In this document: one piece after another, positions 35,996 to 52,206 of the stretch
Numbering within the stretch: position 1 is the stretch's first letter
Layout: each line of letters opens with the position of its first letter
NCBI RefSeq assembly: GCF_006912135.1
Contig: NZ_VIRS01000015.1
Coordinates: 1 to 64,000, forward strand
DNA from: Cryptosporangium phraense
GTDB lineage: Bacteria; Actinomycetota; Actinomycetes; Mycobacteriales; Cryptosporangiaceae
DNA length: 64,000 nt
Direction of reading: 5' to 3'
Program-made: the position numbers and the translations under genes
The notes under the pieces: model-generated
What the model was told of the DNA's origin: nothing
The model's input: the letters and a program-made list of their open reading frames with translations, nothing else
Databases searched by the model: none

Positions 35996-38462
35996 CCCCC
36001 ATCTGCTCCACCGGAGGCGTCCGCAGCAGCTGACCGATCGGCAGCACGGTCGTCGCCAGCGCCAGCACCGCCGCCCCGACGACGACCACCACCCCACCGA
36101 CCACCGGCACGTACGGCACCGGGCTCCCGGTCAGCGCGTTCACCGCCGCCACCAGCGTCCCGGCCGCGATCGTCCCGCCGATCACCAGCGCCACCCCCAG
36201 CAGCCCGGCCTGCTCCGCGTGCACCATCCGCTTCACCTGACGGCTCGTCAGCCCGACCAGCCGCAGCACCGCCAGCTCCCGCCGCCGGGCCAGCGCGGCC
36301 ACCACCATCGTGTTCGCCGCGGCCAGCGCCGCGAACCCGACCAGCACCCCGATCAGCAGCTTGTTCGCCCACCCGCTCACCGCGAGGTCCGTCGCCAGCC
36401 CGGCGCTCAGCTCGTCCCGGGCGACCACCGACGCCCCCGGGTGCCGGGAGACCACATCCGCCAGCCCCGGAACCGAAGCGCCCCGCACGAGCACGGAATC
36501 CGCCAGCCCGGTCGGCGTGTGCCCGGCCACCGTCGACGACGCGAGCGTGAAGTCCCCGAACCCCAGCCCCCGCCGGTAGATCGCGATCACCTTCAACTTC
36601 ACCGGGGTCCCGTCGGCGAGCGTCACCGCCGCCGTGTCCCCGACCTTCCACCCCGACCCGGACGCCCGGAGGTCCGAGACCGCCACCGTGTCCTTCCCCA
36701 GCCGGTCCAGCGATCCGTCGGTCACCGCCAGGTCCAGGGTGGACCCGACCGTCGCCGGGTCCACGGCCTGCGCCCCGGCCGTCTCCAGCCCGTCGAACAC
36801 CGGCGCCACGACGGTCGTCTGCCGCACCGCCGTCACCATGCGGACGCCCGGCAGCCGCCGGATCTCGTCGACCGCCGACGCCGGAAGCCCGGTGGGAGAC
36901 ACCACCGCCTGCTCGGCCAGCGTCCCGTCCCGGCGCTGGTCGACGGTCGTCCGCTGCAGATTGTCCTGGAGGAACCAGACCGAGCCGCCCAGCCCGACGG
37001 CCAGCACCAGCGCGGTCAGCACGGTCGCGCCGCCGCGGGCGTTGGCTCGCAGGTTCGCCGCCGCCAGGTAGCCGCTCGACCGCCACACCGCCGACAGCAC
37101 CGGCGCGAGCACCCGGGCGGCGAACGCGTTGATCTCCGGCGCCAGCAGCCCGACCCCGAGCACGAACAGGTAGAGCATCCCGGTCGCCGAGGCCACCGCG
37201 ACCACCCCGCCGGTACTGATCGCGGCCGGTGCCGCCGCGACCGCCCCGACCAGGATCACCAGCCCGGCGATCCGCCGGACCCGGCCCCCGCCGGACGGTT
37301 CCACGGCCACCTCGCCGAGCGCCTCGGTCGGCCGGATCTTCGCGACCCGACGCGCGGCGGCCAGCGCCGCCAGCACCGCGACCAGCGACGTCACGAGCAC
37401 CGCGGTCGGAGCAGCCAGGACGCCGGGCAGGATCGGCAGCGAGTCCGGCACGAACCCGCGATCCACCAGCTGGCCGTGCACCCACCGGGTCGCCAGCACA
37501 CCGAGCGGCAGCCCGATCACGCCGCCGAGAACGCTCAGCAACATTGCCTCGGCCACGATCATCCGGCGCACCTGCCCCGGGGTCGCCGCGATCGCCCGGA
37601 GCAGGGCCAGGTCCCGCCGCCGGTGCCGCACCGACAATCCGACGGTCCCGGCCACCACGAACCCGATCAGCAGCACGACGTACCCGCCGAACGAGCCGCC
37701 GAGCAGAATCAGCAGGTCGCGCCCGTCCAGGTCCGCGCTCGGCTCGGCCAGCCCCCGGTCGTCGCCGGTGTAGACCTGAGCCCCGTCCGCGACCGCGGAC
37801 ACCGCCTTGGCCAGCGCCGCGGTGTCCACTCCGTGCTCGGCCCGTACCAGCACCGCCGCCGCCCGGCCCGGACTCGGGTTCAATGCGCCGGCCCGCGCGT
37901 CAGTCAGAAACACCGCGACCGGCGAAGCGTCCGCATGAACGAGACCGGTGACCGTGAAGCGGTGCACCGTACCGCCGACCAGCAGGTCGACCGGCGCGCC
38001 GGTCGCAAGCCCGAGGCGGGTGTCGGCGACGACCTCGTCGTCGGTCCGCGGGGCCGAGCCGGACGTCAGCGGCGACCGGCCGAAGGCCGCGCTGCTCCAC
38101 CCGTGCCCGACGGCGCGGACCGGCCCGGCCGTCACCGGAACCGCCACGTCGGCCACGGCCGACTCGACCCCGGCCAGCGTCCGGACGCGGTCCGCGACCG
38201 CGATCGGAACGGTCCCGCCCGGCAGGCGGACCATGCTGGTCGTGACGTCGCCGTCGAACTCCTTCGTCCGCCGGACGACCTCTTGCCGGGCGACGACGAC
38301 GTCGGCGCGGGCGTACCGCTCGGCCGACGGGTGGAAGAACACCGCCGACTCGACGAGCGTGCCCATGCTCATCAGGATCATCACGCCGGTGGCCAGCGCG
38401 ACCAGCGTCGCGACCGCGCTGCCCCAGCGGTGCCGGATCATCCGGAACGCGAGATCGATCAT
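35985..38462 (-). CDS. ABC transporter permease, FtsX/MacB type
   Basis: An 825-residue permease. One N-terminal TM (about 15-38) leads to an extracellular domain. The first FtsX core (about 255-375: VVLLIGFVVAGTVGLSVRHRRRDLALLRAIAATPGQVRRMIVAEAML) is followed by more TM segments, a second extracellular domain, and the last FtsX core (about 695-815: LAALAAANTMVVAALARRRELAVLRLVGLTSRQVKRMV). This two-core layout is typical of actinobacterial lipoprotein/antimicrobial-peptide-type exporters. The ATG overlaps the ATPase gene stop (ATGA). Confidence 0.92.
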   Translation of the reverse strand: MIDLAFRMIRHRWGSAVATLVALATGVMILMSMGTLVESAVFFHPSAERYARADVVVARQEVVRRTKEFDGDVTTSMVRLPGGTVPIAVADRVRTLAGVESAVADVAVPVTAGPVRAVGHGWSSAAFGRSPLTSGSAPRTDDEVVADTRLGLATGAPVDLLVGGTVHRFTVTGLVHADASPVAVFLTDARAGALNPSPGRAAAVLVRAEHGVDTAALAKAVSAVADGAQVYTGDDRGLAEPSADLDGRDLLILLGGSFGGYVVLLIGFVVAGTVGLSVRHRRRDLALLRAIAATPGQVRRMIVAEAMLLSVLGGVIGLPLGVLATRWVHGQLVDRGFVPDSLPILPGVLAAPTAVLVTSLVAVLAALAAARRVAKIRPTEALGEVAVEPSGGGRVRRIAGLVILVGAVAAAPAAISTGGVVAVASATGMLYLFVLGVGLLAPEINAFAARVLAPVLSAVWRSSGYLAAANLRANARGGATVLTALVLAVGLGGSVWFLQDNLQRTTVDQRRDGTLAEQAVVSPTGLPASAVDEIRRLPGVRMVTAVRQTTVVAPVFDGLETAGAQAVDPATVGSTLDLAVTDGSLDRLGKDTVAVSDLRASGSGWKVGDTAAVTLADGTPVKLKVIAIYRRGLGFGDFTLASSTVAGHTPTGLADSVLVRGASVPGLADVVSRHPGASVVARDELSAGLATDLAVSGWANKLLIGVLVGFAALAAANTMVVAALARRRELAVLRLVGLTSRQVKRMVHAEQAGLLGVALVIGGTIAAGTLVAAVNALTGSPVPYVPVVGGVVVVVGAAVLALATTVLPIGQLLRTPPVEQMGVKE

Positions 38463-39208
38463 GACCGCACCCGCGAACGACCCAGCGTGGCCAGAACCTC
38501 GGCGATCCGCGTGGCGCCGGGCTGCGGGAGGTCCAGCACCAGGCGGCCGTCGGCGAGCACCAGGACCCGGTCGGCGTAGGAGGCCGCGACCGGGTCGTGG
38601 GTCACCATGACGACGGTCTGGCCGTGGGTGTCGACGAGCATCCGCAGCAGCGTGAGCACGTCGGCGGCGGTGGCCGTGTCGAGCGCGCCGGTCGGCTCGT
38701 CGCAGAAGATCACCTCGGGCCGGGTGACCAGCGCGCGGGCGATCGCGACCCGCTGCTGCTGACCGCCGGAGAGCTCCGACGGGCGGTGCGTCAGCCGATC
38801 GTCGAGCCCGACGCGCTGCACGACCTCGGCGAGCCAGCCGCGGTCGACGCGCACCCCGGCGAGCCGGGACGGCAGCACGATGTTCTCCTCGACGGTGAGC
38901 GCGCCGAGCAGGTTGAACGCCTGGAAGACGAAGCCGATCCGGTCGCGGCGCAGCTTCGTCAGCTGGGTCTCCGACAGGCCCGACAGCTCGGTGTCGCCCA
39001 GCCGGACCCGCCCGGACGTCGGCCGGTCGAGCCCGGCCGCGGTCTGCAGGAGCGTGCTCTTGCCCGACCCGGAGGGTCCCATCACCGCGGTGAACGTGCC
39101 GCGGACGAACACCGCGTCGACGCCGGCCAGCGCCGTGACCGGCTGCTGGTCGGTGCCGTAGACGCGGGTGAGCTGTTCCACCCGGACGGCTTCAGTGTGG
39201 ACGGACAT
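38459..39208 (-). CDS. ABC transporter ATP-binding protein, MacB/LolD type
   Basis: A 249-residue ATPase with Walker [13 protein letters not shown] (about 42-53), signature [15 protein letters not shown] (about 145-159), Walker [13 protein letters not shown] and a switch His in VTHDP. A GGAGAGG ribosome site precedes ATG 39208. It forms an operon with the FtsX-type permease. No two-component system or substrate gene lies next to it, so the cargo is unknown. Confidence 0.95.
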
Positions 39209-39289: not shown

Positions 39290-39311
39290 GGGGTACAGCC
39301 TGCGCTACCCC
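39290..39311 (-). terminator. Hairpin at the 3' end of the LodA-like gene
   Basis: GGGGTA (39290-39295) and TACCCC (39306-39311), extended by AGC/GCT, form a near-perfect stem with a short CTGC loop overlapping the stop at 39305. No T-run follows on the minus strand. It may limit read-through into the ABC transporter promoter. Confidence 0.4.
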
Positions 39312-42300
39312 TCGGGCGGTACCGGGGTGTCGGCGGTCCAGCAGGCCGCGGTGACGAGCTTCTCGCGGGTGAACGGCTGGCCGTTCCGGGCCCTCCCCTG
39401 GGCGGTGACGCGGACCCGATAGGTGCCGGGTTCGGTGACCGTGAACGTGCCCTGGTAGCCGGCGTCGTCCTCGATCGGGGTCAGGGTCTGGATCTGGGTC
39501 CGGCCGGTCGGCCGGAGGATCTCGGCGACGACGGCCGCGCCGTCGATCGGGAACCCGGCCTCGTTCAGGAACGCGGTGACGGTGACCGTCGAGCCGGCGG
39601 CGACGTCGTCCTGCTCGGCGTCGGCGGTGAGCTGGACGCTCGACCAGGCGTGCACCCGGAGCCGGTATGGCGTGCCGGCCGGGACCGGAGCCGGGGCCAC
39701 GGCCGCGCGGAACCGCGAGACGGGTGAGTTGACGACCGCGAACGCCCGCTCCCGCTCCGACCGCCACTGCGCCTCGGCCGCGTTCGCCGCACCGGCCGCG
39801 TTCGCCGCACCGCCCGCGGCCGGCGCTTCCGCGGCGGCGCGGAACGCGGCGGCGGCGACGCGGCGGCGGGCGGCGGGGGCGATGCCTCGGAGGATCGAGA
39901 GGTCGGCGCCGGCGCCCGGGCCGTGCGCCTCTCCGGCGGCCCCGCCGACCGGCTCCAGGCGCGGCTCCCCCGGCGTCACCACGACGTGCCAGATCCCGCC
40001 CTGCTCGAACCGCCCGGCCGCGAGCTGCACGGGCAGCGCGATCCGGTACCAGGCCAGGCCGTTGCCCGACCCGTACCGCATGGCCGCCTCCTGCCGGGCC
40101 CGCCACGGCTCGAGCAGCAGCCCGTTCGGCGTCTGCAGCCGGAAGTCGACCTCGTCCGGCGCCTCGACCTGCAGCACGACGTCGATACCGCCGTCGGCGT
40201 CGGCCAGCGTGAACGGGATCCGCTCGACCGCGCCCGCGGTCAGGCTCCCGGCCGCGGTGGTCACGACCTCGGCCCCGCTCACGTCGGCCAGGACCTGCAG
40301 CACGGTGTCGTCCACGTCGGCCTCACTGCTGGTCAGCTGGTACCCGCCGAACGCACCGGCCAGCTGCTTCAGCGCGGCCCCGATCGAGTGCGGCGGCCCG
40401 ACCTCGACCGCGTACGGACGGACCAGGACCTCGGCGGCCAGATCGTCGTCCACCGCCCGGGGCGCGTTCGCCAGCCCGTCGGTGAGGACGACGACCACCT
40501 GGTCACCGAACCCGCCCGGATCGGCCTGGACGAGCGCCTGGCCGGCCAGGATCCCGTCGCCGACCGACGTCTTCCCGCGCGGGTCGAGGCGGTCGCCGTC
40601 CAGGATCGCCACGGTCGCGGCCAGCGCGTCGGCGTCGTCGGCGAGCGGTTGGACGGCGCGCAGCGCCTCGGCGTCCGTATCGAAACCGACGAGGCCGAGG
40701 CCGTCACCCTCGAGCAGGAGGGTCGCGAACTTGGCGGCCGCGCGCCGGACGGCCGCGCCGCGGCCGTCGGCGCCCATGCTGGCCGAGCGATCCACGACGA
40801 GCGCGATCGCGGTCCCGGGGCGGGCCACCGTGTTCGCGTCGACCTGGACCGGCCACTGAAGACCGGTGGCGGGCTCACGCACGATGAGGGTCTGGGTCGG
40901 GAGCGCCGACGGCGCGACCCCGGTCCGGTAGGCGACGAGGAACTCGGCCGACGGGTCCGCCGCCGGGTCGACCGTGACGCTCGACGTGAGCGCGGTGAGC
41001 TGGGGATGGTCGGGCGGGAGCAGCTCGAGCGTGGTCGCGGAGTGGACCGTGAGCTGGATCGGCAGCACCGCCTCCCGCACCATGCCCAGCGGGCCCTGGG
41101 CCACGTTCACGAAGTCGAGCCGGCGGGTGGTCAGCGTGATCGGCGGCGGGGTGAGGTGCTCGGTCTCGACGTGCCGGACCGTCCCGTCCGGCGCCTGCTG
41201 CGCGACGACGAACCCGAGGTCGTGCCAGTGCGCGACCATCTCGTCCATGCTGCCGATGTCCCGGTCCCAGACGACGGCGGTGGTCGCGGTGACGTTCTCG
41301 AAGACGTCGTTGGGGCGCGGGACCGGCCACCAGTTCTGGCCGCAGGCCTGGAAGTCGGCCTGCCAGGGCAGCGCCATCGCGGCCGTGACGTGGCCCGGGG
41401 CGACCTGGGCGTGGTCGAGCCGGAACGCCGACGTGTAGGCGGACTCCAGGATCGGCCGGTCGCCCTCGGCGCGTCCACCGGCCTCGATGCCGGGGAAGAA
41501 CGCGCCGCCGACGCAGGCCTCGAGCGCGGCCCGGTCTAGGCCGTCCGGGGTGAGGCCGGGGTCGGGGGCGGGTTCGCCGGCCCAGTCCTTGGTGTAGGTG
41601 CCGGCCTTCCAGCGGGCCAGGTGCCCGGCCTGCACCTTGGTCAGGACCGCGTCCTCGCCGTTGAGGTCGGGCATGTTGCCGGTCGGGCGGAGCTTCTTCA
41701 CGATCCGGTCGACCGTGCGCTGGTCGGTGACCGGGTGGGCCCAGGAGTGGACCCGGCCCACGTCCCGGACCCAGCGCGTGTCGGCCGCGCGGCGCAGGAT
41801 CGGGTAGACGTCCCGGGTGTAGGAGGTCGCGGTGGGGGCTTTCGCCAGGTTGCGCGCCACCATCACGTCGAGGAGCCGGTCGTAGAGCGTGATGACGTTC
41901 TGCTGGTGCGGCGCGAACTTCGGCGGGGCGACCAGCACCCAGGCGCCCTCCACCGGCGGGGTGGAGCCGTCGGGCAGCGTCAGCTGGGCGGTGACCGGGC
42001 CGTCGGCGGTGTCGTCGTACCAGCCGGCGTTGCCCCAGAAGTCGCCGATCCCGTTGCCGGCCGGCGAGTCGGACGTCCCGGCGCCGCCGAGGACCAGCAG
42101 CCGGCCGTTCTCGTCGGTGCGGATCTCGCCCAGGGGCACGGAGGTGGCGACCTGGCCGTCGAACGTGATCGTGCCGGAGTCGAACACGGCCGACTGGCCG
42201 GGGCCGGTGAGCGTGCGCGGGCCGGGGTCGATCGTCAGGTCGGCGGCGGGCTCGTCGTTGCCCCGGTCGGGGTGCGCGGCTTTCGCGTTGGCCAGGTGGA

Positions 42301-42526
42301 CGGTCCAGGTGATCGGGCCCGTCACCTCCTCGGCCGTGCCGTCGTCGTGGTGGGCGAAGACGCGGAACCGGGCGGCCTGGCGTTTGACCCGGAGCTGGTC
42401 GTCCTTGAACCCGTCGGCCGGGAGCGGATGCTCGTCCGGATGCTCGGGGCCGAGGAAGAACTCGTCCGGGCTGTTGCCCACGCGGGCGACGCCGATTGCC
42501 GGGTGAACCTTGTAGACCGTCGTCAC
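39305..42526 (-). CDS. LodA/GoxA-like (CTQ-type) quinoprotein region fused to a von Willebrand A domain
   Basis: A 1073-residue protein. The N-terminal 500 residues look like the LodA/GoxA amino-acid oxidase family: VYKVHPAIGVARVGNSPDEFFLGPE at the start, then CVGGAFFPGIEA (Cys338), ALPWQADFQACGQNWWPVPRP (Cys395, Trp399-400) and MVAHWHDLGFV (Trp434). The family makes a cysteine tryptophylquinone from one Cys and one Trp; the pair used here cannot be fixed by eye. At about 572-745 is a vWA domain with the metal-site motif DRSAS (Asp579) and VVVLTDG. The rest holds beta-sandwich-like segments. No signal peptide is seen, and no LodB-type flavoprotein lies nearby. GTG 42526 is preferred to TTG 42553 because it gives the family N-terminus. 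Confidence 0.8.
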   Translation of the reverse strand: MTTVYKVHPAIGVARVGNSPDEFFLGPEHPDEHPLPADGFKDDQLRVKRQAARFRVFAHHDDGTAEEVTGPITWTVHLANAKAAHPDRGNDEPAADLTIDPGPRTLTGPGQSAVFDSGTITFDGQVATSVPLGEIRTDENGRLLVLGGAGTSDSPAGNGIGDFWGNAGWYDDTADGPVTAQLTLPDGSTPPVEGAWVLVAPPKFAPHQQNVITLYDRLLDVMVARNLAKAPTATSYTRDVYPILRRAADTRWVRDVGRVHSWAHPVTDQRTVDRIVKKLRPTGNMPDLNGEDAVLTKVQAGHLARWKAGTYTKDWAGEPAPDPGLTPDGLDRAALEACVGGAFFPGIEAGGRAEGDRPILESAYTSAFRLDHAQVAPGHVTAAMALPWQADFQACGQNWWPVPRPNDVFENVTATTAVVWDRDIGSMDEMVAHWHDLGFVVAQQAPDGTVRHVETEHLTPPPITLTTRRLDFVNVAQGPLGMVREAVLPIQLTVHSATTLELLPPDHPQLTALTSSVTVDPAADPSAEFLVAYRTGVAPSALPTQTLIVREPATGLQWPVQVDANTVARPGTAIALVVDRSASMGADGRGAAVRRAAAKFATLLLEGDGLGLVGFDTDAEALRAVQPLADDADALAATVAILDGDRLDPRGKTSVGDGILAGQALVQADPGGFGDQVVVVLTDGLANAPRAVDDDLAAEVLVRPYAVEVGPPHSIGAALKQLAGAFGGYQLTSSEADVDDTVLQVLADVSGAEVVTTAAGSLTAGAVERIPFTLADADGGIDVVLQVEAPDEVDFRLQTPNGLLLEPWRARQEAAMRYGSGNGLAWYRIALPVQLAAGRFEQGGIWHVVVTPGEPRLEPVGGAAGEAHGPGAGADLSILRGIAPAARRRVAAAAFRAAAEAPAAGGAANAAGAANAAEAQWRSERERAFAVVNSPVSRFRAAVAPAPVPAGTPYRLRVHAWSSVQLTADAEQDDVAAGSTVTVTAFLNEAGFPIDGAAVVAEILRPTGRTQIQTLTPIEDDAGYQGTFTVTEPGTYRVRVTAQGRARNGQPFTREKLVTAACWTADTPVPPEG

Positions 42527-42564
42527 GGCGGCGATCCTAGGCTCCCTGAGCAAACTCCCAGAAA

Positions 42565-42578
42565 TAGAACGTGTTCTG
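42565..42578 (+). promoter_or_regulatory. KstR-like operator with downstream leaderless -10 element
   Basis: TAGAACGTGTTCTG matches the KstR sterol-repressor pattern TnnAACnnGTTnnA at all but the last base, with perfect AGAAC/GTTCT arms. A -10 TAACGT (42590-42595) lies 8 nt before the GTG start at 42604, placing the palindrome near -35. The gap also serves the divergent LodA-like gene. Confidence 0.55.
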
Positions 42579-42603
42579 GTTTTCTGGCGTAACGTGCGAG
42601 GGC

Positions 42604-43479
42604 GTGAAATGGACCCTGGCTGCCGCCCTGCTGCCTGCCGACCGGCTCCTCGACGTCGCCCGCACGGCCGAGGAGGCCGGGTACTCGTCGGTGGCGATGC
42701 CCGACTCGGTGTTCTTCCCGGAGAAGGTCTCGGCCAAGTACCCCTACACCAAGGACGGCAGCCGGTTCTGGTCCCCGGAGACCGAGTTCATCGACCCGTT
42801 CGTCGCGATCCCGGCGATGGCCGCGGTCACCACCCGCCTGATGTTCCACACGAACGTCTACAAGCTCCCGCTGCGCGATCCGCTGCTGACCGCCAAGCAC
42901 GTCGCCTCGATCGCGGTGATGTCCGGCAACCGCTTCGCCTTCGGCGTCGGTCTGTCGTGGATCCCGGAGGAATTCAGCTTCACCCGCACCGACATGCGGA
43001 CGCGCGGCGCGCGGACGGACGAGGCCATCGACATCCTCAAGCTGGTCTGCGCCGGGAACGGACCGGAGTGGGTGGAGTACCACGGGACGCACTACGACTT
43101 CGACCGGCTGATGATCTCGCCCGCGCCCGACCGGCCGGTGCCGATCTACGTCGGCGGCCACAGCGAGCCCGCTCTCCGGCGGACGGCCCGGGTCGGTGAC
43201 GGGTGGATCTCGGTGAACACGACGCCGGATAAGATCGTCGCCGCGTGCGAGCGGCTGCACGAATTGCGGGCGTCCTATGGGCGCGCGGACGAGCCGTTCG
43301 ACATCATCGCCGGACCGGTCGGGAACGTGAGCCGGGACGACTACCGGCGGCTGGAGGAGGCCGGGGTCACCGAGTGCCAGGCGGCGCCGTGGTGGCAGTA
43401 CGGTGCGGACTTCCGGGACCCGGCCGCGCTCCGGGACGCGACGCTCCGCTTCGCCGACGAGGTGATCGCCCAGTATTGA
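42604..43479 (+). CDS. Luciferase-like, probably F420-dependent oxidoreductase
   Basis: A 291-residue TIM-barrel enzyme of the bacterial luciferase family. Signs are RTAEEAGYSSVAMPDSVFFP near the start, RLMFHTNVYKLPLRDPLLTAKHVASIAVMSGNRFAFGVGLSWIPEEF in the middle and PVPIYVGGHSEPALRRTARVGDGWI in the coenzyme region. Actinobacterial members mostly use F420. GTG 42604 gives the usual family N-terminus (KWTLAAALLPADRLL); an earlier GTG at 42571 overlaps the operator. A role in sterol or related lipid oxidation is suggested only by the KstR-like palindrome. Confidence 0.88.
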   Translation: MKWTLAAALLPADRLLDVARTAEEAGYSSVAMPDSVFFPEKVSAKYPYTKDGSRFWSPETEFIDPFVAIPAMAAVTTRLMFHTNVYKLPLRDPLLTAKHVASIAVMSGNRFAFGVGLSWIPEEFSFTRTDMRTRGARTDEAIDILKLVCAGNGPEWVEYHGTHYDFDRLMISPAPDRPVPIYVGGHSEPALRRTARVGDGWISVNTTPDKIVAACERLHELRASYGRADEPFDIIAGPVGNVSRDDYRRLEEAGVTECQAAPWWQYGADFRDPAALRDATLRFADEVIAQY

Positions 43480-43483
43480 GGCC

Positions 43484-44061
43484 ATGGAACCGCTCACGAT
43501 CGTCGACGAGGGCTGGCAGCGGGCGCTCGCGATCGTCGCGCACCCCGAGGACCTGGAGTTGGGCTCCGCGGCCGCGATCGCCCGCTGGACCGGGCAGGGC
43601 AAGGACGTCGTCTACACGCTGCTGACCAGCGGCGAGGCCAGGATCGACGCCCGGACCCGGCATCCGCGGGGCCTGCGCGCGAGTAGGAGCAGCGAGAGTC
43701 GGCGCGAATCGTCGGAGTGTCGGAGGTGGAGTCCCTCGGGCTGCCGGACGGGAGACTGGAGTACGGCCCCCCGCTGCGGCGCGACCCCGCCTGGGTGATC
43801 CGGCAGCACCGACCGGACATCGACATCACGAACAACATCCGCGAGGGCTGGGACCCCGAGGGCGCGTCGCTGAACGTGTCCCACCATGTCGTCACCGAGC
43901 GGGCCGTGCTCGACGCCGGGAACCGGTGGGTCTCCCGCGACCAGATCGAGGGCGAGGGGCTCGACCGTTGCACCGGCCACTTCGACGCCGAGGAGTCCTG
44001 GAGGTCGCCTAAGGCGCGTTTCGGGGCCGCGTTCGAGGCGCTGTCGCTGGGTCTGTTGTAG
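43484..44061 (+). pseudogene. Decayed PIG-L/LmbE-family deacetylase
   Basis: The first 65 codons read ALAIVAHPEDLELGSAAAIARWTGQGKDVVYTLLTSGEARID, clearly the start of a GlcNAc deacetylase-like protein. The zinc motif AHPDD is changed to AHPED. After about 43650 the match continues in another frame (GPARE, stop, EQRESARIVGVSEVESLGLPDGRLEYG), so a frameshift and an in-frame TAG at 43684 are present. The remainder to 44061 keeps patches such as ERAVLDAGNRWV but is shortened. The family includes mycothiol-pathway deacetylases. Confidence 0.85.
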
Positions 44062-44819: not shown

Positions 44820-45803
44820 TTAGAGGGCCGCCTCGACTTCCTCGCGGGTGCGGGTCGGGTCGGGCGCGGTCGGTGCGGTCGTGGCGACCGGCGCGGTCGA
44901 ACCGGCCGCGACCCGCGCCTGCGCCGCGCGAAACTCCCGCAGCGGCACCTGCACCCCGTTCACCGCCGCCTTCAAAACCCGACGCCGAAGCCCCACTACC
45001 ACCGCGCTCGGCCGCTGGTACAGCGCCAGTTTCTGCGCCCACTCGGGCAGCAGATCCCGAGCCGCCCAGTCCATGAACTCACTCCCCGGCTGCCACGGCC
45101 GCACGCCGTTCCCGCGCAGATTCGGCCCGGTCCCGAACGCCTTGATCGGGGTGACCGCCAGCTTCGGCAGGTACGACTCCAGGCAGTCCAGCGTCTCCTG
45201 CTTGGTCGTCGGCAGACCGGTACCCCCCAACGCCTCGCCGACCCGGACGAACTCGCCGTAATAGCGGTCGATGTCGGGCAGCGGCGACGCGTGGTAGCGC
45301 TCGTGCGCGGTCGCCAGCCCCCACACGACCGTCGCGTAGTTCCAGCGCAACCAGTCCGGGTCGTCGGCGTCGTAGCGCACGCCGTCCGGGCGGACGCCCT
45401 TCACCGTGTGGTGCATCGCCCGGACCGTGCGGGCCAGCTTCTCCGCGGTCTCGGTCGTGCCGTACGCGGTGCCGATGAAGAACGAGACCGAGTGCCCGAG
45501 CCGCACCGCCCCGCCCTCCGGGTCGATCGCCCCGGTCGGCACGCCGTCGGCATCCCGGGCGACCAGCCGCGAGTGGTCGTACCCCATCCAGCTGATGCTC
45601 GGGTCGAGCCCCTCGATGTAGGCCGCGGCGACCAGCCCGAGGATCAGCGCCGGCGTGTGCGAGTGCACGTACCAGACCGCGCTGCCGGGCCCGAACCAGC
45701 CCGGGTCGCCGGCCGGCTCGCGGAACTCGAGGTTGCGGAAGAACTTCGTGCGGATGTCGGCGTCGAAGCCCTGCTCGAAGCGCGTCGCGAGGAAGTTCGC
45801 CAT
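44820..45803 (-). CDS. MpaB-type oxygenase (DUF2236)
   Basis: A 327-residue member of the latex-clearing-protein/MpaB heme-oxygenase-like family. Typical parts are WYVHSHTPALILGLVAAAYIEGLDPSISWMGYDHSRL (about 43-80), RLGHSVSFFIGTAYGTTETAEKLARTVRAMHHTVKG (about 100-135, with the conserved His pair) and WNYATVVWGLATAHERY. The ATG at 45803 has GGAGG 6 nt before it. It is divergent from a TetR gene across two matching 20 bp palindromes. Members oxidise hydrophobic substrates. The substrate here is unknown. Confidence 0.87.
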   Translation of the reverse strand: MANFLATRFEQGFDADIRTKFFRNLEFREPAGDPGWFGPGSAVWYVHSHTPALILGLVAAAYIEGLDPSISWMGYDHSRLVARDADGVPTGAIDPEGGAVRLGHSVSFFIGTAYGTTETAEKLARTVRAMHHTVKGVRPDGVRYDADDPDWLRWNYATVVWGLATAHERYHASPLPDIDRYYGEFVRVGEALGGTGLPTTKQETLDCLESYLPKLAVTPIKAFGTGPNLRGNGVRPWQPGSEFMDWAARDLLPEWAQKLALYQRPSAVVVGLRRRVLKAAVNGVQVPLREFRAAQARVAAGSTAPVATTAPTAPDPTRTREEVEAAL

Positions 45804-45822
45804 CGGAGGCCTCCGGAGGATT

Positions 45823-45842
45823 CTGGATACGGCCGTAGCCAG
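45823..45842. promoter_or_regulatory. TetR operator copy 1 (MpaB side)
   Basis: CTGGATACGGCCGTAGCCAG is a 20 bp palindrome with one mismatched pair, centred on ACGGCCGT. It starts 20 bp before the MpaB ribosome site region and repeats at 45852. Confidence 0.8.
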
Positions 45843-45851
45843 AGTAAGCAC

Positions 45852-45871
45852 CTGGCTACGGCCGTGTCCAG
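45852..45871. promoter_or_regulatory. TetR operator copy 2 with leaderless promoter of the TetR gene
   Basis: CTGGCTACGGCCGTGTCCAG repeats the palindrome of copy 1, 29 bp centre to centre. It lies just upstream of a -10 element TAGGCT (45878-45883) that is 7 nt before ATG 45891, so the TetR mRNA is probably leaderless and autorepressed. Confidence 0.8.
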
Positions 45872-45890
45872 ACTTGATAGGCTCCCGGAC

Positions 45891-46484
45891 ATGACCCGAT
45901 GGGCAGGCGTCCCCGCTGACCAGCGGAAGGACGGCCGGCGCGAGATGCTGGTCGGAGCCGGGTACCGGCTGTTCGGCGACGAGGGCGAGTCCGCGCTCAC
46001 CGTCCGCGCCGTGTGCCGCGAGGCCCACCTGCACACCCGGTACTTCTACGAGAGCTTCGCCGACACCGCCCAGCTGCTCGGCGCCGTCTACGACGAACAG
46101 GCGGTCGCCCTCGGCGACGTCCTCGCGCGGGCGGTCGAGACCGCCGAGGTGAGCGCGCGTACGCGCGCGGGCGTCCGCGGGGTGCTGAGGTTCATCAGCG
46201 ACGATCCCCGTCGCGGCCGGGTCCTTTTCGCGGACGCTCCGTCGCTGGCCGCTCGTCGCCGGGCCGCGGAGCAGAGCCTGTTGGACGGCCTGATCGCGAT
46301 GAGCGGCCGCCCGCGCCTGGGGGTCCTGGTCGCGGCGACGATGTTCACCGGGGCGATGACGCAACTGGCCCAGCAGTGGGCCGACGGCCGCCTCGGCACC
46401 GACCTGGACGCCGTCGTCGACACCGCCGTCGACCTCGCCCTGGCCCTCCAGACCAGAGCGACTCAGCCGAACGTGAACGCGTAG
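45891..46484 (+). CDS. TetR family regulator of the MpaB-type oxygenase
   Basis: A 197-residue TetR protein. The helix-turn-helix is REMLVGAGYRLFGDEGESALTVRAVCREAHLHTRYFYESFADTAQLL (about 14-62), with the ligand domain to 197. It is divergent from the oxygenase gene with two identical-core 20 bp operators in the 87 bp gap. Its 3' end overlaps the convergent redoxin gene by 22 bp. Confidence 0.9.
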   Translation: MTRWAGVPADQRKDGRREMLVGAGYRLFGDEGESALTVRAVCREAHLHTRYFYESFADTAQLLGAVYDEQAVALGDVLARAVETAEVSARTRAGVRGVLRFISDDPRRGRVLFADAPSLAARRRAAEQSLLDGLIAMSGRPRLGVLVAATMFTGAMTQLAQQWADGRLGTDLDAVVDTAVDLALALQTRATQPNVNA

Positions 46485-47410
46485 GCCTCGGCGCCGGCCG
46501 CCTCGAACGTGATCTCCAGCGTGCGCTCCCGAACTTTCCCCGCCGACCGGGTCAGCTGGTACAGCCGCCCCTCGCGCAGCACCCCGGACCCGTCGGCGTC
46601 CACGTCGGCCCCGGCCGCCGGCCCCGGCGGCGCGCCGTCGATCGTCACCCGGAAACCGATCGGCTCACCGGTCCCGGCCAGCACCGCGTGCGCGTCCCGG
46701 GCCGAGAACCGGAACGCGATCCCGCCACCCGGCCGGACCAGCGCGACCCGCTCGGGCCCGAACGTCCACTCCCCCGACAGCGCCCAGTGGTTCCCGCCGA
46801 GCACGGTCGGAAGCCGATACACGGCCGGCTCCGGCCCGGCGTCCTCGGGCGACGCGAACCGCTCGCCGCGGGCGTACCCGAGGTACGTCTCGGGGGTCTT
46901 CAGCTGACGCCAGTCGGCCGCCGCCTCGACCCCGGCCCCCTGCACGCCCGGCGCGACCGGCGGCCGGTTGACGTGCAGGAGCCGCTGGAGGACCCGCTCG
47001 GACTGTTCGTACCGCCCCTCGCCGAAGTGCTCGTCGTGGATGACCCCGTCGCGGCCGGCGAAGTACAGCGCGGGCCAGTACCGATTCCCGAACGCCTTCC
47101 AGACCGCGTAGTCGTTGTCGACCGCGACCGGGTAGTCGATCCCCCGCTCCGCGACCGCGCGCCGGACCCCGTCGATCTCGTGTTCGAAAGAGAACTCGGG
47201 CGTGTGCACGCCGAGGACGACGAGCCCGTCGTCGCGGTAGGCCCGCGCCCAGGCGCGGACCCAGGGCTCCTGCCGGAGCCAGTTGATACAGGTCAGCGTC
47301 CAGAAATTGACCAGGACGACGTGGTGGCGCAGGTCGGCGGGCGTCAGCGGCTCGGTGTTCACCCAGGCCGACGCCCCGGCGAGTGAGGGTAACGGCACGC
47401 GTTCCGACAT
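46463..47410 (-). CDS. Redoxin (thioredoxin-fold) protein with C-terminal beta domain
   Basis: A 315-residue soluble protein. The N-terminal thioredoxin-like/AhpC domain (about 1-150) has LVNFWTLTCINWLRQEPWVRAWA, where the second Cys of a CxxC is Trp, and GVHTPEFSFE. A C-terminal beta-rich domain (about 185-315) resembles the extra domain of DipZ-type proteins. Single-Cys TCINWLR is common in this actinobacterial subfamily, so it is not a lesion. It probably acts by a one-Cys mechanism. The partner is unknown. Confidence 0.82.
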   Translation of the reverse strand: MSERVPLPSLAGASAWVNTEPLTPADLRHHVVLVNFWTLTCINWLRQEPWVRAWARAYRDDGLVVLGVHTPEFSFEHEIDGVRRAVAERGIDYPVAVDNDYAVWKAFGNRYWPALYFAGRDGVIHDEHFGEGRYEQSERVLQRLLHVNRPPVAPGVQGAGVEAAADWRQLKTPETYLGYARGERFASPEDAGPEPAVYRLPTVLGGNHWALSGEWTFGPERVALVRPGGGIAFRFSARDAHAVLAGTGEPIGFRVTIDGAPPGPAAGADVDADGSGVLREGRLYQLTRSAGKVRERTLEITFEAAGAEAYAFTFG

Positions 47411-47467: not shown

Positions 47468-49705
47468 ATGAGGGGACGACGGTCGGTCGTGGCGCTGATC
47501 GTGGTCACGCTGGCCGGCCAGGTCGCCGGCCTGGTCGACCACGATCTGCACGACGTGACGTTCGGCGTGTCCCTGCTCGTCCTCGACGGGCTCGGGCTGG
47601 CCTACAGCATCCGGGCGGCCCGGCGGTCGGCGACCCCGCGGATCTGGGCGCTCGCGGCGGCCGGGCGGGGCCTCTCGCTGCTGACCACGGTGCTGTTCGC
47701 CGTCGACGCGGTCACACCCGGACTCGGCTGGTGGTACCTCGCCGTCTGCACCGGGCTGGCGATGTTCGCGACGCTGAGCGCCGCGAGCCTGGCCGTGACG
47801 ACCGAGCGGCTCGACCGGCGGCACCGCTGGGCGTTCATCGCCGAGGCGGCCACGGTGCTGAGCAGCGCGTTCATCGTGGCCTGGTACTTCGTGCTGGACC
47901 CGGCGCTGAGCGACAGCCCGTCGCGGCACTGGCTGTTCGACCTCGGCTACCCGTTCGGGAACCTGGTGTTGCTGGCCGCCGTGTTCGCGGTGCTGCTCCG
48001 AGGCGTGATCGCCCGGCTCACGCCGTCGGTCGCGGTGCTGCTCGGCGGCATGCTGCTCTACGCGGTCGGCGACATCGCGTTCTCGGCCGTCCGGATCCAC
48101 GGGCAGCAGGCCAGCGACAACGTGCTCGCCGCGGCCGCGCTGGTGGTCGCGTCGCTGCTGATGACGATCGGCGCGATGGAGGAGCGGTCCCGGGCGGCCC
48201 GGGGCCGGGCCACCACGCTGTCCCGGATGCCGGCCTGGTCGACCCACCTGCCCTACGTCGCGGTGGCCGTCGGGAACCTGATGATGCTGGTCGCGACGAT
48301 CCGCGAGAACGACTTCCAGCTCTGGGGCGGGCTGGTGATCGGCCAGACCGTGATGACCAGCGCGCTCGCCGTCCGGCAGCTGATCAGCCTGCGCGAGAGC
48401 AGCGAGCGCAACGTCACCGACCCGCTGACCGGGCTGGCCAACCTCACCGGGCTGAGCGAGGCCACCCGGCGGGCCGTGCAGCGCCGCGAGCCGATCGCGC
48501 TGCTCCTGCTCGACCTCGACGGGTTCAAGCAGATCAACGACCACTACGGCCACGAGGTCGGCAACGCCGTGCTGGTCGAGTTCGCCCGGACGCTGCGCAC
48601 CGCGATCCGCAGCGACGACACCGCGGCCCGCGTCGGCGGGGACGAGTTCGTCATCCTGCAGACCGGCGTCACGACCGAGAGCCAGGCCGTCGCCCTGGCC
48701 GAACGGGTGCTGTCCGCGCTCGCGGACACCCGGGTCCGGGAGGGCGACGACCTGATCGCGATCCGGACCAGCATCGGGCTGGCCGTCCGCGAGTCCGACG
48801 ACAGCCCGCAGGACCTGCAGCACAAGGCCGACCTGGCGATGTACGAGTCGAAGCGGGCCGGGTCACACGGCTGGAGGGCCTACGACGCGTCGATGACCGA
48901 CCGGCGCAACCGGGACGCTCTGCTCGCCGCCGAGCTCGAGCACGCCTGCGCGTCCGGGGAACTCTCGGTGCTCTACCAGCCGATCGTGGACCTCACCACA
49001 GGCGACGCGGTCGCGGTCGAGACGCTGCTGCGCTGGCACAGCCCGGCGCTCGGGGCGGTGCCGCCGACCGAGTTCATCCCGGTCGCCGAACGCAGCGGGG
49101 CGATCCACGAGATCGGGCGGTGGATCCTCGGGCAGGCCTGCCGCCAGGTCCGGCGCTGGGCCGACGCCAGCGGCGGGCAGATCGTCTACGTCACGGTGAA
49201 CGTGTCACCGCGCCAGCTCGAGGATCCGACGTTCATCGACGACGTCATGGCGATCGTCGAGGGCAGCGGGTTGCCGCCGGACAAGCTCGTCCTGGAGATC
49301 ACCGAGACCGCGATCGTCGACCAGCGGACCGCGATCCCGGTGCTCACCACGCTGCGCAAACGCGGGGTTCGGATCGCGATCGACGACTTCGGCACCGGCT
49401 ACTCGGCGCTGCACTATCTGACCCGCCTGCCGGTCGACGTCCTCAAGATCGACCGGACGTTCGTCGGGCAGCTCAACGGGACCCGGCAGGGGGCCGCGGT
49501 GACCGAGGCGATCATCCGGCTCGGCCAGATCCTCGGGCTGACGATCGTGGCCGAAGGCATCGAGACGTCCGCGCAGGCGACCGAGCTGCAGGCCCTGGGG
49601 TGCGCGCTGGGCCAGGGCTACCTGTTCTCGCGCCCGGCCGACGCGGCGGACCTGGACGCGATGATCACGTCCGCGCCGCGCCGGGAGTCACCCGCCCGGG
49701 CGTGA
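47468..49705 (+). CDS. Membrane-bound GGDEF-EAL cyclic-di-GMP protein
   Basis: A 745-residue protein. About nine hydrophobic segments occupy 5-300. The GGDEF domain is at about 310-475, with an intact GGDEF at 390-394, so diguanylate cyclase activity is possible. The EAL domain is at about 490-740. Its signature Glu is retained in VAVETLLRW (ETL for EAL), with NVSPRQL, LEITETAI, DDFGTGYSAL, LKIDRTFV, VAEGIET and GCALGQGYLFSRP all present, so phosphodiesterase activity is also possible. No PAS domain was recognised. The tail overlaps the small convergent gene by 18 bp. Confidence 0.94.
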   Translation: MRGRRSVVALIVVTLAGQVAGLVDHDLHDVTFGVSLLVLDGLGLAYSIRAARRSATPRIWALAAAGRGLSLLTTVLFAVDAVTPGLGWWYLAVCTGLAMFATLSAASLAVTTERLDRRHRWAFIAEAATVLSSAFIVAWYFVLDPALSDSPSRHWLFDLGYPFGNLVLLAAVFAVLLRGVIARLTPSVAVLLGGMLLYAVGDIAFSAVRIHGQQASDNVLAAAALVVASLLMTIGAMEERSRAARGRATTLSRMPAWSTHLPYVAVAVGNLMMLVATIRENDFQLWGGLVIGQTVMTSALAVRQLISLRESSERNVTDPLTGLANLTGLSEATRRAVQRREPIALLLLDLDGFKQINDHYGHEVGNAVLVEFARTLRTAIRSDDTAARVGGDEFVILQTGVTTESQAVALAERVLSALADTRVREGDDLIAIRTSIGLAVRESDDSPQDLQHKADLAMYESKRAGSHGWRAYDASMTDRRNRDALLAAELEHACASGELSVLYQPIVDLTTGDAVAVETLLRWHSPALGAVPPTEFIPVAERSGAIHEIGRWILGQACRQVRRWADASGGQIVYVTVNVSPRQLEDPTFIDDVMAIVEGSGLPPDKLVLEITETAIVDQRTAIPVLTTLRKRGVRIAIDDFGTGYSALHYLTRLPVDVLKIDRTFVGQLNGTRQGAAVTEAIIRLGQILGLTIVAEGIETSAQATELQALGCALGQGYLFSRPADAADLDAMITSAPRRESPARA

Positions 49706-50037: not shown

Positions 50038-50925
50038 TCACCGGAGGAGCGCAGTGGCCACGAGAATGACCACCGGCGCGAGAAACGTCGTGATCAGCAC
50101 GGTCTCCCGGGCCAGCCGGGCCGCGACGCCGTAGTGCGCGGCCCAGACCGCGACGTTCTGCGCGGCCGGCAGCGCGGCCAGCACGACCGCGGCGTAGACG
50201 GTCGACTCCGGCTGCCCGAGCGTGAGCAGCCAGGCCAGCACCGGCCGGGCCAGGGACACGCCGACGATCAGCGCCAGCGGTCCCCGATCGCCGTCCCGGC
50301 CCGGCCACGAACTCCCGACCAGCGACATTCCGAACGCCAGCAGCACGGCCGGCACCGCGACCCCACCCAGGATCCGCACCGGCTCGGCGACGACGAACGG
50401 CACCGGCACCCCGGTCGCCGCGACCACCAGCGCGAGCACGGTCGCGACCAGCACCGGGTTCGTGACGATCGACCGGACCCGGTTCGCCCCCCGCAGCTCC
50501 AGCACCGAGAGCGCCACCGGTGACTGCACCGCCAGCTGGACCAGGATCAGCGGCGCCACCAGGGCCGCGTTCCCCAGCACGTAGGACGCCACCGGGATGC
50601 CGAGGTTGCCGAGGTTCGGAAAGCCGCTGGCGATCGTCCCCATGACCCGGACCTCGCCGCGCCACCGGCGCACGACCGCCACCACGACGAACACCGCCAT
50701 CGCGGCCAGGCAGGTGACCAGCGGAACGACCGCGGTCGGCGCGGTGAGCAACGACGGGTCGGCATGGGTGACGGTCGTGAACAGCAGGCACGGGGTCGCC
50801 ACCGAGACCGCGAGCCGGGCGAGCACCGGTTGCGCGGACGAACCGAGCGTTCCGCGCCACCCGAGGACGTAGCCGACCGCGATCAGCACCCCGATCGCGG
50901 CGAACCCGGAGAGGGCGCCGCTCAC
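50038..50925 (-). CDS. AEC (auxin efflux carrier) family transporter
   Basis: A 295-residue membrane protein with about ten TM segments. Family markers are LARLAVSVATPCLLFTTV (about 35-52), the FPNLGNLGIPVASYVLG segment (about 101-117), GVAVPAVLLAFGMSLVG and LPAAQNVAVWAAHYG. AEC carriers export or import small organic acids. The substrate cannot be told here. It starts ATG 50925 and is divergent from the P450 gene. Confidence 0.9.
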   Translation of the reverse strand: MSGALSGFAAIGVLIAVGYVLGWRGTLGSSAQPVLARLAVSVATPCLLFTTVTHADPSLLTAPTAVVPLVTCLAAMAVFVVVAVVRRWRGEVRVMGTIASGFPNLGNLGIPVASYVLGNAALVAPLILVQLAVQSPVALSVLELRGANRVRSIVTNPVLVATVLALVVAATGVPVPFVVAEPVRILGGVAVPAVLLAFGMSLVGSSWPGRDGDRGPLALIVGVSLARPVLAWLLTLGQPESTVYAAVVLAALPAAQNVAVWAAHYGVAARLARETVLITTFLAPVVILVATALLR

Positions 50926-50995
50926 CGCAAGTTCACACCGGGGACGTTAACCGGCAAATCGCGAGAGTCCTCGCCCGAGAGACCGACTTCACGAC

Positions 50996-51009
50996 ACCAA
51001 GCGCTTGCT
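50996..51009 (+). promoter_or_regulatory. KstR2-type operator within a leaderless promoter
   Basis: ACCAAGCGCTTGCT matches the KstR2 motif AnCAAGnnCTTGnT at every fixed position. It abuts the -10 element TAGGCT (51009-51014), which is 7 nt before ATG 51022. A bound repressor would cover the promoter spacer of the P450 gene. Confidence 0.7.
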
Positions 51010-51021
51010 AGGCTCACAGCC

Positions 51022-52206
51022 ATGAACCCCGAGCTGACCAGTGGGGAGTTCTGGGGCACCGACCCGCACCCGGCGCTGACCTGGTTACGCGAGAACGACC
51101 CGGTGTACTGGGACGCCTCCGGCGGGGTCTGGGGACTGACCCGCTACGCGGACGTCCGCGAGGCCTCCCTGCACCCGGAGCTGTTCTCGAACGCCGGAGG
51201 GATCCGGCCCGAGTCCCCGGCGACGCCGATGATGATCGACTCGGACGACCCCCAGCACGCGTTGCGCCGCCGGCTGATCAGCAAGGGGTTCACGCCCCGG
51301 CGGGTCGCCGACCTGCGTCCACGGATCGACGAGGTGGCGCACGCGCTGCTCGACCGGGTGTGCGGGCGCGGCGAGTGCGAGTTCGTGAGCGCGGTCGCGG
51401 CCCGACTGCCGCTGATCGTCATCGGCGACCAGCTGGGCGTCGCCCCGGAGGACTACGACGACCTGCTGCGCTGGTCGGACGACATGATGGCGGTGCAGGG
51501 CCAGCGCGCGGATCCGGCGCGGGCCGCGAAAATGGTCACCGCGATGGCCGAGTCCCGCGCGTACTTCGGCGACGTCTTCGCCGACCGCCGGGCCAACGGC
51601 GGCGACGACCTGATCGGCGTGCTCGTGCGAGCGGAGGTGGACGGACACCGCCTGGACGACGAGACGCTGTACTTCGACTCGCTGCTGCTGCTGATCGGCG
51701 GCGACGAGACGACCCGGCACGTGATCACCGGCGGCCTCTACCAGCTGCTACGGAACCGCGACCAGTGGGAACGGCTCCGCGACGACCGGTCACTGCTCCC
51801 GGGCGCGATCGAGGAGGCGCTGCGCTGGGTCACGCCGATCCGGAACATGGCCCGGACCGTGACGCACGACCTCACGGTTCGAGGAAAACACCTGAAGCGG
51901 GGCCAGAAGGTGCTCCTCCTCTACCCCAGCGCCAACCGCGATTCCCAGGTCTTCGACGACCCGTTCACGTTCGACATCACCCGCGCTCCGAACCCGCACC
52001 TGGCCTTCGGCCTCGGCACCCACTTCTGCCTGGGCAGCTCGCTCGCCCGGCTGGAACTGACGTCGATTTTGACCGCGCTGCTCGACCGCTTCCCCGACCT
52101 TCACCTGCGCGACGAGACCGAGCCCGCCCTGCGTCCGGCGATCTTCGTCAGCGGCTACGAGGAACTGCCCGTCCGCTTCACGCCGACCGCCCCGGCGCGC
52201 GCCTGA
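51022..52206 (+). CDS. Cytochrome P450, CYP142-like
   Basis: A 394-residue P450. Visible parts are HPELFSNAGGIRPESPATPMMIDSDDP (about 51-77), the I-helix GGDETTRH (about 231-238), ExxR in EEALRW, and the heme loop FGLGTHFCLGSSLARLE (about 333-349) with the Cys ligand. The N-terminal third matches the CYP142 pattern (FSNAGGIRP, MMID, DDP), a family that oxidises the cholesterol side chain at C26/C27. The KstR2-type operator upstream agrees with a sterol role. Its end overlaps the convergent TetR gene by 29 bp. Confidence 0.92.
   Translation: MNPELTSGEFWGTDPHPALTWLRENDPVYWDASGGVWGLTRYADVREASLHPELFSNAGGIRPESPATPMMIDSDDPQHALRRRLISKGFTPRRVADLRPRIDEVAHALLDRVCGRGECEFVSAVAARLPLIVIGDQLGVAPEDYDDLLRWSDDMMAVQGQRADPARAAKMVTAMAESRAYFGDVFADRRANGGDDLIGVLVRAEVDGHRLDDETLYFDSLLLLIGGDETTRHVITGGLYQLLRNRDQWERLRDDRSLLPGAIEEALRWVTPIRNMARTVTHDLTVRGKHLKRGQKVLLLYPSANRDSQVFDDPFTFDITRAPNPHLAFGLGTHFCLGSSLARLELTSILTALLDRFPDLHLRDETEPALRPAIFVSGYEELPVRFTPTAPARA

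Follow-up and report, generated by a model that had tools for sequence, protein, structure and literature searches.

The window analysed here is a 64,000-nucleotide stretch of the genome of the soil actinobacterium Cryptosporangium phraense (NCBI RefSeq assembly GCF_006912135.1, contig NZ_VIRS01000015.1, positions 1 to 64,000), and the gene under study encodes a LodA/GoxA-like quinoprotein fused to a von Willebrand factor type A (vWA) domain. The gene, hereafter the window lodA, is an uninterrupted open reading frame (ORF) with a third-position GC of 0.96. Its GTG start is preceded by AGGA, and an alternative in-frame TTG at 42553, upstream of the GTG, would give a product of 1082 aa. It is the sole LodA_N gene in the genome (two matched segments, one gene), and the LodA motifs quoted in a first-pass annotation of this DNA are found in the translated ORF. 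The linker, vWA domain and C-terminal part that follow the LodA domain are referred to as the cassette, the window genome as G000, and its three Cryptosporangium congeners as G001, G002 and G003. The gene, its parts and its two flanking genes are as follows.

39305..42526, minus strand: vWA-fused LodA-like protein, 1073 aa, GTG start
41162..42526, minus strand: LodA domain, about residues 1-455, from Pfam and a model of residues 1-485
41327..41356, minus strand: predicted cysteine tryptophylquinone (CTQ) site, Asp391, Cys395 and Trp399-Trp400 (LodA D512, C516 and W580-W581)
40829..41161, minus strand: beta-rich linker at the start of the cassette, about residues 456-566, also matched in a subtilisin fusion (genome G439) and a tyrosinase fusion (genome G092)
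40247..40828, minus strand: vWA domain, about residues 567-760, with metal-ion-dependent adhesion site (MIDAS) residues D579, S581, S583, T653 and D683
39308..40234, minus strand: residues 765-1073, the beta-rich C-terminal part, which shows filamin/YtkA-like matches and, at about 885-920, an Ala-rich insert
38459..39208, minus strand: ATPase of an ATP-binding cassette (ABC) transporter, adjoining lodA
42571..43479, plus strand: F420-dependent LLM-class oxidoreductase (luciferase-like) on the opposite flank of lodA, 86% identical in G002

Membership of the LodA family and fusion to a vWA domain, both proposed in the first-pass annotation, hold up. LodA_N (residues 8-199, E 1.2e-58, 199.1 bits against a gathering score of 26.3) and LodA_C (residues 291-406, E 5.7e-20, 72 bits against 25) are followed by VWA_2 (E 7.1e-8) and VWA (E 1.3e-5) at about residues 574-713, the latter two also above their cut-offs; the filamin- and YtkA-like matches at the C-terminus are sub-cut-off. 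The DxSxS motif of the MIDAS is DRSAS at residues 579-583, and its five residues, including the Thr and the second Asp, are present in all four Cryptosporangium rows. D683 is Asp in 10 of the 11 aligned rows that reach that position and Gly in locus L054.

Residues 1-485 were modelled with AlphaFold2 from 47 aligned rows, with a mean predicted local distance difference test (pLDDT) of 87.5 and a predicted template modelling score (pTM) of 0.89. All 50 PDB matches listed by Foldseek for this model are LodA or GoxA chains, the best being 2ymw (LodA; E 4e-30, TMq 0.76), and this confident model has the LodA/GoxA fold, in support of the family assignment. An earlier full-length model, built from 13 rows, had a poor LodA part (mean pLDDT 55) and matched mainly vWA-containing structures and LodA in Foldseek; the second model alone was used for the LodA fold.

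When a profile of five LodA domains was aligned to the crystal sequence, Cys395 fell on LodA Cys516, Asp391 on Asp512, and Trp400, the second Trp of WWP, on Trp581. The LodA residue numbers were counted from this alignment and agree with C516/W581 in the 2015 survey of the family (PMC4417212), which gives the aligned Cys and Trp as conserved in all members. Conservation was assessed in 47 LodA domains, i.e., the window copy and 46 from 54 loci (near-duplicates and partial copies left out), the loci themselves coming from one contig scan with two peptide patterns that was not exhaustive. Trp400 is conserved in 47/47 domains, and Cys395 and Asp391 each in 46/47; four residues separate Cys and Trp in 23 of the domains, and 15 to 24 in the other 24. 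All three residues are also intact in both G000 and G002 despite a protein identity of 62%. By alignment, then, the cofactor pair is Cys395-Trp400 and the predicted quinone site is complete, and the suggestion that the site might be lost does not stand. The first-pass annotation had named Cys395 or Cys338 with Trp434 or Trp399/400 as possible pairs: Cys395 and Trp400 are retained, and Cys338 and Trp434, which align to the non-cofactor residues Cys442 and Trp626 of LodA, are ruled out.

With respect to the family, the Pfam domains, the fold, the aligned Cys/Trp pair and a lodB-like gene in the genome were all found; an adjacent lodB, which is usual but not universal and was not taken as defining, was not. 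Neither characterized activity is indicated by the NCBIfam equivalogs, since the protein scores 168 bits against a cut-off of 600 for the LodA lysine 6-oxidase (NF038172) and 212 against 750 for the GoxA glycine oxidase (NF038173); by that measure it would be neither enzyme. It shares with LodA, the L-lysine 6-oxidase of Marinomonas mediterranea (2ymw, 3weu), the fold and the equivalents of Cys516, Trp581 and Asp512, but differs in having 4 instead of 64 residues between Cys and Trp, Phe163 for Tyr211, Phe344 for Cys448, an extra C-terminal part of about 620 aa, and no adjacent lodB. With GoxA, the glycine oxidase of Pseudoalteromonas luteoviolacea (6byw), it shares the fold (E 3e-24) and Phe163 (GoxA Phe316), whereas His583 is replaced by Phe344 and the score lies under the GoxA cut-off.

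The first-pass annotation regarded the fusion as an undescribed architecture, which is ruled out, as vWA-fused LodA-like proteins have been in print since 2015: Table 3 of PMC4417212 lists CryarDRAFT_3973 of Cryptosporangium arvum (1026 aa) and H480_25957 of Amycolatopsis vancoresmycina (1114 aa). Like the window protein, these join LodA to pfam13519, and C. arvum is named there as the one genome without a lodB near the gene. In its available part, the survey reports no unlinked lodB and no explanation for the absent partner in C. arvum, and draws no link between the vWA part and other enzymes. G002 is probably C. arvum, as its ORF from a TTG has 1026 codons, the printed length. Open-licence literature searches for a vWA-LodA, a CTQ protein with a von Willebrand domain or a Cryptosporangium quinoprotein returned PMC4417212 alone, and those for a tyrosinase with a von Willebrand factor type domain returned no report, neither of which proves that nothing has been published.

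A LodB profile built from three LodB sequences gave no match at E≤1e-4 among the ORFs of at least 80 aa in the window, in agreement with the earlier remark that no lodB neighbours the gene. However, a search for an unlinked copy, also proposed there, located lodB in G000 at C1:294772-295812, on a contig separate from the window, which rules out absence of LodB from this genome. The match (5.6e-60, the next best in G000 being 7.6e-8) is an open frame with a GxGxxG motif for flavin adenine dinucleotide (FAD), and its identity to the G001 LodB is 68% in the first segment and 65% in the second. The G002 lodB lies at C1:6319986-6321266 (72% and 55% identity to the same segments), about 2 Mb from lodA on one contig, and neither lodB has inner stops. 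In G001 and G003, the LodB gene directly follows the vWA-lodA, with NF038171 as best NCBIfam family (2.2e-61 and 1.5e-58). The G000 LodB is below the strict NCBIfam LodB cut-off, and so are the linked LodB of G001, G003 and a further relative (G023). PF01494 is too broad for singling out LodB, and FAD_binding_3 has 65 matched places in G000. The second-best LodB-profile gene in G001 (contig C22; L042 9701-11107) is a tryptophan-halogenase-like flavoprotein that adjoins an AMP-binding enzyme, perhaps of secondary metabolism.

The unlinked lodB sits where the congeners keep a lodA-lodB pair. In G000 and G002 the gene order is glycosyltransferase, DUF4331, tetratricopeptide repeat (TPR), NicO-like, lodB, an unnamed gene and CoxE-like, which is the order around lodA-lodB in G001 and G003, except that no lodA lies between the NicO-like gene and lodB where G001 and G003 have the vWA-lodA. 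The site also differs in a gene of the metallo-beta-lactamase fold, present after lodB in G000 and G002 but not in the other two, and in two additional genes in G001. For seven shared proteins around this old locus, identity is 76% within the G000/G002 pair and 87% within the G001/G003 pair (four taxa, no outgroup). At the other end of the comparison, the luciferase-like gene and the ABC transporter adjoin each other in G002 without an intervening lodA, and this empty site aligns with the DNA immediately downstream of the window lodA. The shared lodB neighbourhood and the empty site indicate that lodA and lodB came apart and that the position of lodA differs between G000 and G002. The neighbour of the G002 lodA had no match at 1e-30 in G000, which left no way to look for a counterpart empty site in that genome; G001 and G003 are uninformative on the window insertion site, as they have the luciferase-like gene and the ABC gene on separate contigs. 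The lodA-lodB loci outside the genus (L043-L054) showed matches to LodA and LodB alone, with none of the other genes of this neighbourhood, and the operon is taken as ancestral at the Cryptosporangium lodB site because of the lodA-lodB linkage seen elsewhere.

LodA and LodB gave different histories. In the full-length LodA tree, G000 and G002 group with Kribbella (support 92/97), and the G001 and G003 copies fall with Virgisporangium and Sinosporangium (95/93). Monophyly of the four Cryptosporangium LodA was rejected by the approximately unbiased (AU) test for the full-length protein (p-AU 1.9e-61), the LodA domain (2.4e-5) and the cassette (7e-4). The four Cryptosporangium LodB, in contrast, come out as one clade (100/99) with Virgisporangium as its neighbour (92/89), and joining the G000 and G002 LodB to Kribbella was rejected (p-AU 2.3e-11). 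The LodB test used 11 rows, without the long-branched Brocadia and Lysobacter rows and near-identical Kribbella rows; with Brocadia and Lysobacter in, the four LodB are still one clade (100/100). The LodA-domain and cassette tests used 12 rows, without L051 and L053, both of which were in the full-length test, and L044 and L052 were left out of all LodA tests as near-duplicates. As the AU tests were devised after the first tree was seen, their p-values serve as guides only. Rejection of one LodA clade together with a single LodB clade implies that the remaining LodB is kin of the other LodA lineage's partner, and on these sequences the maturase and oxidase of the window species look re-paired. 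The orphan lodA may have arisen by transfer or may be an old duplicate. In the wider LodB tree, the Brocadia LodB (L047 7006-8409, plus strand) adjoins its vWA-lodA, yet lies outside the group of other vWA-LodA partners, which may be a long-branch artefact or a second exchange of partners.

LodA is scarce among relatives and, where present, mostly linked to lodB. In the window genome and 60 relatives (61 in all), LodA was matched in five, namely G000, G001-G003 and G023, the last without a vWA, and a family profile at E≤1e-10 matched 12 of 394 genomes of the class, with a full-length match in the window's own genome only. The search for the same domain pair proposed in the first-pass annotation yielded, in addition to the congeners, a complete LodA-vWA-C-terminus gene in 10 of the 54 scanned loci (five Kribbella, Virgisporangium, Sinosporangium, Lysobacter, a Deltaproteobacteria metagenome-assembled genome (MAG) and a Brocadia MAG), with lodB directly downstream on the same strand in all ten. 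L051, in which the vWA-LodA is cut by the contig end, is a 6-kb contig filed under a Nitrososphaerales archaeon; its vWA-LodA groups with actinobacterial copies, the 2015 survey found no archaeal LodA (PMC4417212), and the contig is probably mis-binned. Overall, lodB (E<1e-15) is present at 45 of the 54 loci. The nine without it comprise six that end inside lodA at a contig end, L060 and L061 (the same DNA under two MAGs), and L071. L071 has kept the Cys, and its MAG has a LodB match of 3.5e-52 on another contig. L060 is the sole LodA domain of the 47 without Cys and Asp and has no lodB nearby; the MAGs of L060 and L061 have only weak LodB matches (8.7e-11 and 8e-6). With Arg at the quinone Cys and Ser at the Asp, the L060 gene (9986-11785) is a candidate natural quinone-less LodA.

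The cassette is found in 14 of 15 genomes (12 behind L043-L054, plus G001-G003), the exception being Actinophytocola, and it also occurs behind other enzymes. Four genomes of the class search gave matches confined to the part of the profile behind the LodA domain. In G092 (L113:5518-9321) and G439 the matches span linker, vWA and C-terminus, and are preceded by a tyrosinase (PF00264, 2.7e-25) and a subtilisin (PF00082, 1.3e-23), respectively. Weaker and less clear are G196, with vWA and C-terminal matches behind immunoglobulin-like repeats, and G059, with a vWA match alone behind a trypsin-like domain. Kribbella sp. VKM Ac-2568 has a second cassette copy on a tyrosinase (L133:8024-11119; PF00264, 5.4e-36), about 50 kb from its vWA-LodA. 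By profile, the two tyrosinase fusions carry the same C-terminal cassette as the window LodA and differ from it in their catalytic domain. As it is fused to tyrosinases and a subtilisin too, the cassette is, judged by these profiles, a portable C-terminal module of its own, for which docking or assembly through the vWA metal site seems the likeliest role. The evidence for its assignment comes from profiles and from the C-terminal part of the first full-length model, which is of moderate confidence. A cassette-only search of the phylum at E≤1e-20 matched one of 396 genomes, the window's own, and a PDB profile search returned weak vWA, PilB and filamin matches only. No signal peptide was seen by eye on the window protein, the Kribbella tyrosinase or the subtilisin fusion, the starts of the latter two being unsettled. 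A Cys-containing C-terminal tail of about 40-50 aa (C..L.CL ... LRKCL or similar) occurs in L043-L050 and L052, i.e., in nine of ten complete vWA-LodA relatives (not L054), and in the G092 tyrosinase fusion; neither the window protein nor its counterparts in the three congeners have it.

The explanation favoured here, and considered somewhat probable, is that the window gene encodes a LodA-family oxidase with a C-terminal vWA/beta cassette that is matured in trans by an unlinked LodB of other-lineage descent. Active LodA is stated to require LodB (PMC4417212), and PMC7876137 describes the target of LodB and GoxB as a mono-hydroxylated Trp that receives the second oxygen and the crosslink to Cys. 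The unlinked flavoprotein, descended from the partner of another LodA lineage, would thus build the Cys395-Trp400 quinone; the mature enzyme would release ammonia and H2O2 as it oxidises an amino acid or a primary amine, and the cassette would dock it to a partner or assembly via the vWA metal site. In the likeliest history, the line(s) leading to the window species and to G002 would have lost their operonic lodA or had it replaced, and the resident LodB would have been taken over by a solitary, Kribbella-like lodA. Going further, it is possible, though tentative, that LodB changed clients after the loss of its own LodA and now matures a remotely encoded LodA of another lineage, and that unrelated enzymes with no signal peptide seen by eye (CTQ oxidase, tyrosinase, subtilisin) wear the cassette, possibly for a shared and undescribed export or assembly route. 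Several points weigh against maturation by a re-paired LodB. Support for placing the orphan LodA with Kribbella is moderate (92/97 full length, 83/84 for the LodA domain, 82/93 in a wider tree); the G000-G002 identity is 55% in the cassette vs 70% in the LodA domain, and fast evolution may mean relaxed constraint; model residues 391-410, the quinone-site stretch, have a pLDDT of only about 68-73; the LodB profile weakly matches (E≤0.001) 8 of 14 control genomes, with none above the cut-off; the contrast of L060 with L071, which otherwise favours this explanation, rests on two MAGs sharing one contig; and a given LodB may be specific for its own LodA (PMC4417212, citing its ref. 17), which speaks against a swapped pair.

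The long LodA branches of G000 and G002 could alternatively mean that the window lodA is the native operonic gene, which moved and then evolved fast, so that the original pair was kept and the trees conflict only by artefact. Trees can misplace fast-evolving sequences, and the empty G002 site does show that lodA changes place; yet a single Cryptosporangium LodA clade was rejected separately for the full protein, the LodA domain and the cassette, and the four LodB rows carry no such conflict, which makes this reading unlikely. It is quite unlikely that the orphan LodA lacks the quinone altogether and binds protein via the vWA cassette, with the leftover LodB a relic or modifying something else: a neighbouring lodB is missing and the relative L060 has lost Cys and Asp, but G000 and G002 have both retained Asp391, Cys395 and Trp400 at their low identity, and a lodB without inner stops is kept in both. 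Formation of the quinone without LodB, by autocatalysis or another FAD monooxygenase, could draw on the many FAD_binding_3 matches of the genome and on the first LodA hydroxylation, thought to be autocatalytic (PMC7876137). The LodB requirement cited above and the linkage at 45 of 54 loci, with six of the nine exceptions cut off inside lodA, speak against it, and it is regarded as very unlikely.

What is new is that the window genome encodes an unlinked LodB at the site where two congeners have a lodA-lodB pair, that its LodA belongs to another lineage than the LodA of the lodB left behind, and that the cassette is also found on a subtilisin and two tyrosinases. A maturase gene that stayed behind may account for the one exception that the published linkage survey left unexplained. 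With linked and unlinked, and same- and cross-lineage, LodA/LodB pairs in one genus, maturase specificity becomes directly testable, and the role of a vWA part common to several enzyme types is open to study apart from LodA.

Beyond the luciferase-like gene, the window contains the following genes by Pfam, among which there is no obvious partner of LodA.

44820-46364, minus strand: MPAB/Lcp-type oxygenase
46463-47410, minus strand: redoxin with a thioredoxin-like C-terminal domain
47468-49705, plus strand: GGDEF-EAL protein
50764-52206, plus strand: cytochrome P450

Lastly, beside the luciferase-like gene, two short overlapping ORFs in different frames (43484-44061, plus strand) look by eye like one frameshift-split PIG-L-type deacetylase.

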